Shown: positions 7,948-42,760 of the stretch, piece after piece | Position numbering within the stretch: the first letter of the stretch is position 1 | Layout of the letters: each line of letters opens with the position of its first letter | Assembly (NCBI GenBank): GCA_007129405.1 | Contig: SKVN01000072.1 | Span: forward strand, 1-42,760 | DNA length: 42,760 bases | Direction: 5' to 3' | Source of the DNA: Kiritimatiellia bacterium | GTDB taxonomy: Bacteria > Verrucomicrobiota > Kiritimatiellia > UBA8416 | Made by a program: the position numbers and the translations under genes | Notes under the pieces: generated by a model | The model's database searches: none | The model's input: only the letters and a program-made list of their open reading frames with translations | Told to the model about the DNA's origin: nothing

Positions 7948-8150
7948 TAGAATTGTGGTCGCCTCCGCATCACCGACCACGGCACTCCGTGCCAACCCAA
8001 AGCGGCGATTCGGATCGCCGCAGTCCAAAAAATAACCACAACCCCAATATGGAGTGCGGTGATGTCTTCGTCCCTACTCCCTTCGGGGCACGGGGCTACG
8101 GTGGCACAGGCGCGCGACAGCGATCTCGCCGCTTTGGAGGGAGCGAGAGA
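7948..8150. repeat. Intergenic modular palindromic repeat, copy A
   Basis: Hairpins GGCACTCCGTGCC (7981-7993) and GCGGCGAT-TCGG-ATCGCCGC (8002-8021); ATATGGAGTGCGGTGAT at 8047 onward; reverse complement closely matches 39431-39475. Confidence 0.85.
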
Positions 8151-39380: not shown

Positions 39381-39426
39381 AACATTCGTGAAAGTGCATC
39401 ATTGCGCTCCATATTTTCGTGGGTGA

Positions 39427-39639
39427 GTATGGAGTGCGGCGATCTGAATCGCCGCTTTGGGGGGCACGGAGTGCCGGGGGACGGTGATGGGCTTAGCGCG
39501 ATTGATGAATCGATGGTTTGCTATGAGTCGAGTAGGCTGTGGGGGGGCGCTCCGCTTGGATGAAAGCGGTGAGATCGCTTCGCTCGTCACCGCACTCCAT
39601 ATGGATTGGTGGTGGATATGGAGTGCGGCATCATTCTGA
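39427..39639. repeat. Intergenic modular palindromic repeat, copy B
   Basis: GCGGCGAT-CTGA-ATCGCCGC (39436-39455), GGCAC-GGA-GTGCC (39463-39475), opposed TATGGAGTGCGG copies at 39428 and 39590-39601, a further one at 39617. Confidence 0.87.
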
Positions 39640-39649
39640 CGCCAAACGC

Positions 39650-42646
39650 TTAGTTTAGAATAGTCTTGATGATTTGAGGCGAGAGCTCTTGTAGTGGCTT
39701 TTGGGTTGCGCCGTCTGCGTAAGCATAGAGACACTTGAGCAGTTGACGTGCTTCGGGATGTTTCTGTAAACCCATTACGTCTATTGTGCAGACAATCAAA
39801 CGGCCTTTGCCGACTTTTGCCTCGAGAATGAGGCCCAACTTATGATTGCGGTCGAAACCATCGATCACTTGTACGACCGGACGGAATTTGTGCGGTGTAT
39901 CATTCAGGATCATCGGGTCGCAATGCTTGACCAGTTGCCACCATTGCCAGTTGGAATGGAACTCCGTTGGAAAATCCTTGAAGAGTGGATGCTTCGGGTC
40001 GAGCAGAATTCCTTGTGTTCCTGGAAACTGCTTGCCATCCGGAGTTTTTTTGTTGCCTATACGGAACATGGGTGACCAGAATCCCGTCTGGAAAGCCATC
40101 CGAACGGTTCTCTTGAGAGCACCGGGTCTGGTCAAAAGCAGTACGGTTGCGCCTGCCTCCAAATCGGTTTGCACTTTGCGGTTCAGGCTCCGTGTAACCG
40201 TGACTCCTTTTGGTGCTGCAATGATATTCTGACCTTGAAGATTTTTCAAACCCTTAGCAGCGGCAAGGGATTGCCGCCCTCCATGTTCATATGACATTTT
40301 GGAGGGACGCAATCCTTTGCGTCCGCTACCAAGGTCTTGTTGTATCGTGATATCCGGGTATACCCAGATATCGTAGCTATTTTTGTACGGCGTGCCTGGA
40401 ATCGCAATTGTAACCTGTAGTTTCTCGGCTTTTTTAATGCCGCTGAGATCGGCGGAGAACAAATCGACATCGGTTACATTGCCTGTGGGAATGTCCATTG
40501 TGCGGGTCTGTCCCTTGGCAACGACTTTCTTGTTGGCTGTAATGGTCCAGGTCAGATGTTTCTGGATAAAATCTTTGGGGCCATAATGCGCAATGCGAAT
40601 GCGGCCATGGAAGGTTTCCGTATTGGTCCATGTGTATTTCGTCATCCAGAGTAGGGGCACCGTTTCGCAACAGAATGCTCGCCATGCTGCGGGGGAGATA
40701 AGGCCTTTTGAATCCATAAATGCGTCTAGAATGCCGACCAGAGCAGTACCTTGACCGCTGAAGTCCATGAGGTCGAGGAGATGAAATCCACCATGGCCGG
40801 CGGTTCGCAAGCAGGCCTCGATATCCTCGCGATGGCAAATTACAGATAGTGCGCCAGATGCCTTGAGAAAGTCCCGTGCTTGATTGAGCATTCCCGCGGC
40901 TTTGAGTCGTTCCCGGAATATTTCAAAATTGCGAGCACGTAAGACACCCGTGTACTTTTTGATTTCGCGATAGTCTGGGTATACTTCGAATTCACCATTT
41001 TCGTGGGTGATAACGGGAATCGGTACCCCTTGGATGGCTGAACCATATTCGACGGTTGTGGATGGGGCTTGGTGGTCAATGTGGAGATTCGATTCAAACG
41101 ATGCTCCCCGCACGGGACGTTTCCTGGATGTGCCACGTGTGACCCAGAAATCGTCTCCCTCCCGGCGGCCGATATCCCAATGGAAGTGCCCCGAGCCCAT
41201 GGCATACAAATGACGATTGTCAATCGAACGGAAGTGATCGCAAATACCCTTCATGACGCTCTCATCACCACCGAGTTCGTTGCCGAGCGTTAGCATCACA
41301 AATGAGGGGTGGTTGCCGTAGGCTTTCAGAATACGTTCTCCTTCTCGCAGCAGATAGGCGGTCCGGATGGCAGGGGGACCGCCATCGCCCTCCAGCTCGT
41401 CCAGCGTTTCATAAGCTTCTGCAGGGGGGCGATAATCCTTGTTGTCGGGGGCGGTGATTTCGCGTTTGTTGGGGAGCTCCGCCAACAGGTACATGCCTAG
41501 TTCATCTGCCGCTGCAAAAGCTGCTTCGGGTGGACACCAGGAGTGGAACCGGTAATGATTCAGTCCGTATGATTTGGCAATAGAAAGCAACCGCATCCAT
41601 TCTTGCTTTTCCATGGGGGCATATCCCGTAAGCGGGAAGATGGCACTGTCCACGCGCCCTCGCAGGTAGGTTGGGCGGCCGTTAATCACAAACTGACCGC
41701 GGTCCGTAGCAAAGTTGCGCAAGCCGCACACGACACTGCAAGTATCTTGCCGCCACGTGGCGACCGGCATGGCCTTTGTTTCCAGCGTGACGCGCAGCAA
41801 GGCTGGGTTGAACTCGTCCCAGCAACAAATGGAGTCGGGAATTCCGATGGTTGCTGCTGTTTGGGTGACGCGTTCCCGTAACAATGTGCCACTCTCTACC
41901 GCAGGAATTGCCGGGGCCTTCTTTCCTAAAAACTCGGCTTTCCAGATGAAGTCAGCAGCACCACTCCAGTTCGTTTCGTTGATGATTGTAGCTTTAACCT
42001 GAATTTTACGTTCTGCTGCGTTTGGATATGCTTGCAGACTCTGAATCCAGATGGGCTCCCTTGCGGTGAGGGTTATCTTCCCAAGGATTCCGTTCCAATT
42101 GGTTTGGGTACGCTCATCCACTTGGTGGCAGGGACCTACGGGAGGCAGTTTCGCGTTATCAATCAAAATGGTAATGGTATGCTTGCCGGGTGTCAGCAAT
42201 TTGGATAAATCGAATTCATGGGGGGTCGACAAGGAGTCATCACTACCGGTCCATTTTTCATCCACCCAGACCTGACTGTTTTTGGTGCGTTCCAGAAAAA
42301 GAAAGACTTTTTTGTTTTTCCATGCTGCCGGAATATCAACTTCCTGCTGATACCATGCGGGGCCGATCCAGCGGTACAAACGCGAAAGCCTATCGGCACA
42401 GGCTTCGTTCGTGACCTCGCCATAGCCGGCTTCATCGGTGGTTCCGGGGAGAGAGATGGTGTCGGGCAATTTCTTGTTGAACCAGCGCTGTTTAATGCCT
42501 TGGTTCTGTGGATCCAGTTTGAACCGCCATGTACCTGCGAGCGAAAGCGTGTTTTCAGAAGTAGCCATCCTAGTCGTCCTTTTACTATTTTGAGCAAAAA
42601 TACTATTGCAATAGCTGCATCCTAAACGGCATTGTTTATAACTCAA
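39650..42646 (-). CDS. Glycoside hydrolase family 2 (beta-galactosidase/beta-glucuronidase-like)
   Basis: SLAGTWRFKLDP start of sandwich domain, NHYRFHSWCPPEAAFAAADELGMYLLAELP, VMLTLGNELGG (acid/base NE). Real start probably about 42568 (MATSENTLSLAG). Confidence 0.92.
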   Translation of the reverse strand: MSYKQCRLGCSYCNSIFAQNSKRTTRMATSENTLSLAGTWRFKLDPQNQGIKQRWFNKKLPDTISLPGTTDEAGYGEVTNEACADRLSRLYRWIGPAWYQQEVDIPAAWKNKKVFLFLERTKNSQVWVDEKWTGSDDSLSTPHEFDLSKLLTPGKHTITILIDNAKLPPVGPCHQVDERTQTNWNGILGKITLTAREPIWIQSLQAYPNAAERKIQVKATIINETNWSGAADFIWKAEFLGKKAPAIPAVESGTLLRERVTQTAATIGIPDSICCWDEFNPALLRVTLETKAMPVATWRQDTCSVVCGLRNFATDRGQFVINGRPTYLRGRVDSAIFPLTGYAPMEKQEWMRLLSIAKSYGLNHYRFHSWCPPEAAFAAADELGMYLLAELPNKREITAPDNKDYRPPAEAYETLDELEGDGGPPAIRTAYLLREGERILKAYGNHPSFVMLTLGNELGGDESVMKGICDHFRSIDNRHLYAMGSGHFHWDIGRREGDDFWVTRGTSRKRPVRGASFESNLHIDHQAPSTTVEYGSAIQGVPIPVITHENGEFEVYPDYREIKKYTGVLRARNFEIFRERLKAAGMLNQARDFLKASGALSVICHREDIEACLRTAGHGGFHLLDLMDFSGQGTALVGILDAFMDSKGLISPAAWRAFCCETVPLLWMTKYTWTNTETFHGRIRIAHYGPKDFIQKHLTWTITANKKVVAKGQTRTMDIPTGNVTDVDLFSADLSGIKKAEKLQVTIAIPGTPYKNSYDIWVYPDITIQQDLGSGRKGLRPSKMSYEHGGRQSLAAAKGLKNLQGQNIIAAPKGVTVTRSLNRKVQTDLEAGATVLLLTRPGALKRTVRMAFQTGFWSPMFRIGNKKTPDGKQFPGTQGILLDPKHPLFKDFPTEFHSNWQWWQLVKHCDPMILNDTPHKFRPVVQVIDGFDRNHKLGLILEAKVGKGRLIVCTIDVMGLQKHPEARQLLKCLYAYADGATQKPLQELSPQIIKTILN

Positions 42647-42654
42647 CGATTTTT

Positions 42655-42760
42655 TCAGTCACTGCGTTGGGTGGTGCGCCTCGTCGCTTCGCTCCCCCCA
42701 AAGCGGTGCGGTCGCTATCGCTCGCCTGTCGCGCCGTAGCGTATTCGCGAAGGGGGAGCA
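42655..42760. repeat. Intergenic modular repeat, copy C (truncated by window end)
   Basis: Reverse complement CTACGGCGCGACAGGCGAGCGATAGCGACCGCACCGCTTTGGGGGGAGCGA aligns to CTACGGTGGCACAGGCGCGCGACAGCGATCTCGCCGCTTTGGAGGGAGCGA in copy A (8095-8145). Confidence 0.78.

Follow-up and report, generated by a model that had tools for sequence, protein, structure and literature searches.

The inverted hairpin pairs of the window

The window analyzed here is a whole contig of 42,760 nucleotides (C187) from a 1.97 Mb Kiritimatiellia bacterium assembly of 203 contigs that is 76% complete. It carries two copies, A (7981-8132) and B (39431-39598), of a family of inverted hairpin pairs that is dispersed in the genome and lies mostly between genes, and a third copy that runs off the contig end. 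The copies are built of REP-type units of two subtypes, p and q (see below), arranged as follows:

7981-7993, minus strand: copy A, second hairpin GGCACGGAGTGCC behind the p-type REP (direct reading; folds with the REP hairpin, z = -4.2)
8002-8026, minus strand: copy A, p-type REP unit (unit scan; fold z = -4.4)
8027-8050, no strand: copy A, spacer of 24 nt that separates the feet in a feet-inside (TT) arrangement (20-24 nt in the seven TT pairs of the genome)
8051-8132, plus strand: copy A, q-type REP unit with a 63-nt loop (unit scan)
39431-39455, plus strand: copy B, p-type REP unit with foot TATGGAGT (exact pattern; fold z = -5.1)
39463-39475, plus strand: copy B, second hairpin GGCACGGAGTGCC (direct reading; fold)
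39566-39598, minus strand: copy B, q-type REP unit (unit scan; fold z = -3.2)
42679-42760, minus strand: third copy, q-type REP with a long loop, truncated where the contig ends (repeat finder; overlap with contig C43)

The sequence-only reading had matched the reverse complement of 7981-8026 to 39431-39475 with two substitutions and a short length difference, and direct reading bears this out: the differences are GGAC/GGAG, CCG/CTG and a TT/G length change, and the repeat finder aligns copies A and B at 94% over a 32-nt core. The two tandem hairpins that it saw in each copy are real, with the two-hairpin stretches folding as single-stranded DNA at z = -4.2 and -4.5 and the p-REPs at z = -4.4 (8002-8031) and -5.1 (39427-39460). 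Equally real is the second, divergent unit that it placed near 8047, a forward REP with its GGAG at 8051 that extends through to 8132 and encloses a 63-nt loop against the usual 4-15 nt. This loop holds another dispersed sequence, CTTCGTCCC...GGGGCTACGG, which has matches on its own on contigs C111, C8 and C86. The p-REP of copy A has its foot mutated to GGAC and retains an 8-bp stem (GCGGCGAT/ATCGCCGC); copy A as a whole folds at z = -2.5, and its q-REP alone folds no better than shuffles (z = +0.26). In copy B, the p-REP at 39431 and the q-REP at 39566-39598 form a 168-bp feet-outside (HH) pair (whole pair z = -3.6), and the copy occupies most of the gap (39381-39649) between two convergent genes. 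An 8-nt direct repeat, GCATCATT, lies on either side of copy B (39396-39403 and 39628-39635); partial outward-facing REP feet are also present on both sides of it, and these features could be due to chance or be a trace of insertion.

The final 121 nucleotides of the window (42640-42760) are identical to the start of contig C43 (G000:C43:1-121), where a TT pair completes the third copy. The two contigs are thus probably neighbors, with the assembly broken inside a repeat, and the overlap is a break of this kind rather than an independent copy.

A genome-wide family of paired units

The assembly contains no fewer than 46 REP units, spread over 27 or more contigs: 43 curated units from fetched loci on 24 contigs, and those on contigs C93, C106 and C120 recovered with the exact pattern. 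A BLAST search of the genome with 7948-8150 gave 34 matches at E<=1e-3, far above chance, and the exact pattern GGAGTGCGG-N4..34-CCGCTTTGG occurs at 27 places, against none for its reversed control. The units share the layout T[T/A]T-GGAG-T-GCGG...CCGC-TTT, i.e., a foot T[T/A]TGGAGT, a stem and a trailing TTT. In the p type, a second hairpin (GGCACGGAGTGCC or GCGCGGAGCGCG) comes after the REP, whereas the q type usually displays a GCGAAGCG-type loop followed by a GGAGCGAAGCGACGGGG-type sequence or a variant thereof. All 16 pairs found in the genome are inverted and join a p to a q unit; nine have their feet outside (HH; length 149-244 bp) and the other seven have them inside (TT; feet 20-24 nt apart). 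The scan of the 43 curated units recovered no tandem pair. Unlike halves are also known for some other REPs (PMC3733652). In another genome, a tandem array was seen, with six REP units on one strand set roughly 97 or 193 nt apart (G154:C91:23-822).

The units are depleted from long reading frames: 10 of 43 lie within an ORF of at least 150 aa, whereas randomly drawn positions in these loci do so in 79% of cases; the figure is approximate because the ORFs are mechanical. Among the feet-outside p-REPs with a readable neighbor, 13 of 15 are placed past the 3' end of a same-strand gene. With many copies that are paired, inverted and depleted from long ORFs, the earlier suggestion of a genome-wide repeat dispersed over unrelated intergenic sites holds.

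Nesting and a second dispersed repeat

Five q-type units, including that of the window, have a long loop with an inserted module in the unit scan. One module, CTTCG...CTACGGCG, occurs both inside REP loops and alone, at 20 places that are in part due to chance, as the reversed control gives 9 (e.g., window 8051-8132 and 42732-42752, and contigs C29, C38, C40, C43, C91, C132 and C193). REP dimers inserted into palindromes have been reported in other bacteria (PMC3733652), and the nesting seen here fits, short of proof, a preference for hairpin apices.

We also uncovered a second dispersed repeat, a cassette that runs from CTAG-NN-TGTAACTTCA to GCATCATCT-TGGC-GCCCAAGTGCCC...CTAG, with 46 matches to its parts in the genome (e.g., at loci L167, L171-L173, L177-L184 and L190-L192, among others). 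The cargo between the same ends varies and is mostly palindromic, with GAGTAAGTGT words, ACGAGAACGGCGACGAGAACGG words, TTGGATATTC words or REP pairs. That the ends form an inverted repeat of each other finds weak support, with 25 of 1000 shuffles doing equally well. A minimal element, one palindrome with feet at both ends (GGAGTGCGGTGACGAGCGAAGCGAACTCACCGCACTCC), was seen mid-cassette at L184 (G000:C150:3394-3471); it resembles the "double foot" REPs of PMC6006769.

Linkage of the repeat to a distinct clade of RAYTs

The earlier proposal of a RAYT or Y1 transposase bracketed by the same hairpin is borne out in relatives; in the window's own genome, as far as it is assembled, no such locus was found. 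In the family-mate G025, a 176-aa RAYT (L072) lies between two REP dimers with a foot identical to that of the window repeat, and in the family-mates G026 and G023 the homologs are flanked by REPs on either side, some of them in feet-inside pairs that closely resemble those of the window. Such a RAYT with its own REPs (a REPtron) is seen in these three genomes and in most members of the clade. No clade RAYT was found in the assembled own genome at E<=1e-30. The four Y1 transposase genes found there were rejected as the cognate enzyme: none has a REP in the flanks that were fetched, and their identity to the L072 RAYT does not exceed 30%.

Across genomes, the association is specific to one group of enzymes: GGAGTGCG is present within 300 bp of 37 of 39 clade members (on both sides in 27), as opposed to 1 of 31 other Y1 loci. 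This first set consists of 38 loci obtained from named genomes by a protein-only search, minus a duplicate of L072 and one weak match, plus L072 itself and the loci of G026 and G023. In a second, phylum-wide set, 29 of 30 clade RAYTs are flanked by GGAGTGCG; the two sets seem to share one genome or more, as L150 and L211 look identical. At the level of whole genomes (n = 289), at least three REPs are present in 27 of 33 with a clade RAYT versus 24 of 256 without one (Fisher p 2e-18, which is optimistic because the genomes are related). The REP pattern occurs 76, 56 and 31 times in G249, G214 and G039, respectively, genomes with no clade RAYT at E<=1e-30; these may be orphan families or reflect missing sequence.

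The REPs flanking these RAYTs also preserve their hairpins through compensatory changes. Among those picked by foot and trailing TTT, and not by pairing, 352 of 378 stem cells are paired against a shuffle mean of 285 (maximum 301), other registers pair at most 46% of stem cells, and in stem pairs 4 to 7 both sides have changed.

By motif, model and fold, the clade enzymes are RAYTs. The NHYH form of the HuH motif and Y125 of the Y---NP motif are invariant; L072 scores 83.2 bits with the NCBIfam model REP_Tyr_transpos (NF047646; cut-off 80); the E. coli TnpA_REP structure 4ER8 is the sole sequence match of the clade profile in the PDB and the top match by fold of an AlphaFold model (pLDDT 89.7). 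In the phylogenetic tree, all 31 clade rows group together (support 88/96; 90% of bootstrap trees), and the named rows come from 13 phyla, namely Verrucomicrobiota, Kiritimatiellota, Lentisphaerota, Caldifarciminota, Hydrogenedentota, Pseudomonadota, Fidelibacterota, Zixiibacteriota, Latescibacterota, Chloroflexota, Sumerlaeota, Ignavibacteriota and Armatimonadota. Single phylum cases among these could be binning errors, since most rows are metagenome bins; Chloroflexus islandicus is a named strain among them.

A predicted passenger of the NHYH-clade RAYTs

Given that the same hairpins bracket one particular RAYT in relatives and in about a dozen other phyla, they are most likely passengers of that enzyme. 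Accordingly, we hold it very probable that the window sequence is a non-autonomous REPIN-like element that is moved in trans, with a RAYT of the NHYH clade as its cognate enzyme. The guess of RAYT mobilization made from the window is thus supported by the linkage to the clade, but the four Y1 transposases of the own genome lack the repeat, and mobilization is predicted from the linkage. The element consists of two inverted REP-type hairpins, each with a foot T[T/A]TGGAGT directly 5' of a GCGG...CCGC stem. In the mechanism that we consider most likely, the RAYT (TnpA_REP, a HuH single-strand endonuclease) of the distinct NHYH clade would recognize the foot and stem base on folded single-stranded DNA, e.g., on the lagging-strand template. 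It would then nick this DNA and transfer the hairpin pair in trans, with copies landing intergenically, often just past the 3' end of a gene and sometimes within other dispersed repeats. The RAYT that spread the copies in the own genome has presumably been lost since or is encoded in the missing quarter of the assembly. Comparison with G024, G023, G025 and G026 yielded no clean empty site, as only one flank is conserved and gene order differs.

The recurrent position of the feet-outside p-REPs downstream of same-strand genes, together with the effects known for REPs of other bacteria (PMC6006769), could alternatively mean that the repeats are kept mainly for a role at the RNA level, such as 3'-end protection, termination or attenuation, with the transposase link reflecting origin only. 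We consider this unlikely, as unit composition, loops and neighbors vary, the same-genus genome G024 (68% complete) has no exact copy of the hairpin pattern, and the tight linkage to a single transposase clade would be left unexplained. Less likely still is that the CTAG...TGTAACTTCA...GCATCATCT...CTAG cassette is the mobile unit and the REP pair merely its cargo: several REP copies do lie inside the cassette (C91, C31, C49, C135 and C150), yet copies A and B of the window lack its ends, it also carries other palindromic cargo without REPs, and the RAYT link concerns the REP and not the cassette. A conserved structured-RNA gene or coding sequence is largely refuted and highly improbable; the strong secondary structure and the ORFs of 80 aa and 111 aa that overlap copies A and B, respectively, would suit it, but no Rfam family is detected in the window at gathering cut-offs, and the repeat occupies many unrelated intergenic sites, has variable loops and is depleted from long ORFs.

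Relationship to known REP-RAYT systems

Canonical REPs bear a 5' tetranucleotide GT[AG]G at the foot of the hairpin (PMC3686654, PMC6006769), the tag that the RAYTs studied so far recognize. The repeat lacks this tag: in the 136 hits that flank clade RAYTs, the predominant bases at the three positions before GGAG are T (105), T or A (91/27) and T (118), and T[T/A]T likewise precedes GGAG in the window's genome. Other features of canonical REPs are present, i.e., a palindromic stem downstream of the foot that varies in sequence (as seen in the folds and compensatory changes) and a high copy number at mainly intergenic sites, and the two inverted REPs that form the repeated unit are the hallmark of REPINs. 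As the foot differs from GT[AG]G while the other REP/REPIN features tested, save movement, are displayed, we classify the repeat as a REP/REPIN variant. Of the earlier label "REPIN/MITE-like", the first half stands, but the second fits only loosely because the pair ends in hairpins and the link is to a HuH/Y1 enzyme. MITEs of DDE transposases have terminal inverted repeats and target-site duplications of constant length; of the latter kind, the 8-nt direct repeat around copy B is the one candidate seen.

The repeat resembles the REP/REPIN and RAYT systems of Pseudomonas, Stenotrophomonas and E. coli (PMC2817692, PMC3116915, PMC3686654) in being a short intergenic palindrome with a conserved foot, in forming inverted pairs and in flanking the RAYT gene. 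The REPs of Pseudomonas and Xanthomonas even have GGAG after the tag (GT[AG]GGAG...). Unlike those systems, it has T[T/A]T rather than GT[AG] before GGAG, every pair joins unlike subtypes and includes an additional hairpin, and the loops are sometimes very long. The GTAG-tagged REPs of Opitutus terrae, of the same phylum according to that paper, and of other genomes (PMC3733652) likewise form HH and TT dimers and heterodimers, and in some species the dimers are inserted within other palindromes; however, their tag is different, and the term GGAG is absent from the text of the paper.

Among enzymes, the closest described group, compared by description and motifs only, is TnpA_Y1 subclass 2.8 (PMC6006769), which shares the NHYH and Y---NP motifs, a similar length (199 aa on average there) and REP-flanked genes. 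That subclass comes from Cyanobacteria in the sample studied and is reported with GT[AG]G feet, whereas the clade described here spans multiple phyla and is associated with T[T/A]TGGAGT. E. coli TnpA_REP, in spite of being the best structural match, is only 14% identical in the structural alignment, belongs to a subclass with DHLH in place of NHYH and has another foot.

In the open-licence literature, which covers part of the journals, we found no paper with both RAYT and GGAG as whole words, and among the matches listed, the papers that contain the letters GGAGTGCGG are unrelated to the subject. We put at about an even chance that the repeat and its enzymes form a branch of REP-RAYT systems not described before. 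In such a branch, the NHYH clade and the eight bases of foot and stem base, GGAGTGCG (usually after T[T/A]T), would have remained paired across 13 phyla while the remainder of the hairpin drifted, and the REPINs would tend to nest in other palindromic repeats. REPs have been described as species-specific and have been searched for via the GT[AG]G foot, and the finding that a foot lacking GT[AG]G follows a single RAYT clade through many phyla suggests that such searches overlook a widespread branch. It also offers a candidate enzyme-substrate pair for testing recognition rules, and it adds a record of REPINs from uncultured lineages, in which these elements have received little study so far. 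The window's own genome also encodes a different RAYT of 229 aa (L010, G000:C23; NF047646, 96.5 bits), whose flanks seem to bear repeats of their own on both sides (translated NATLQRG / ALPWERHAPAW), perhaps a second REP family.
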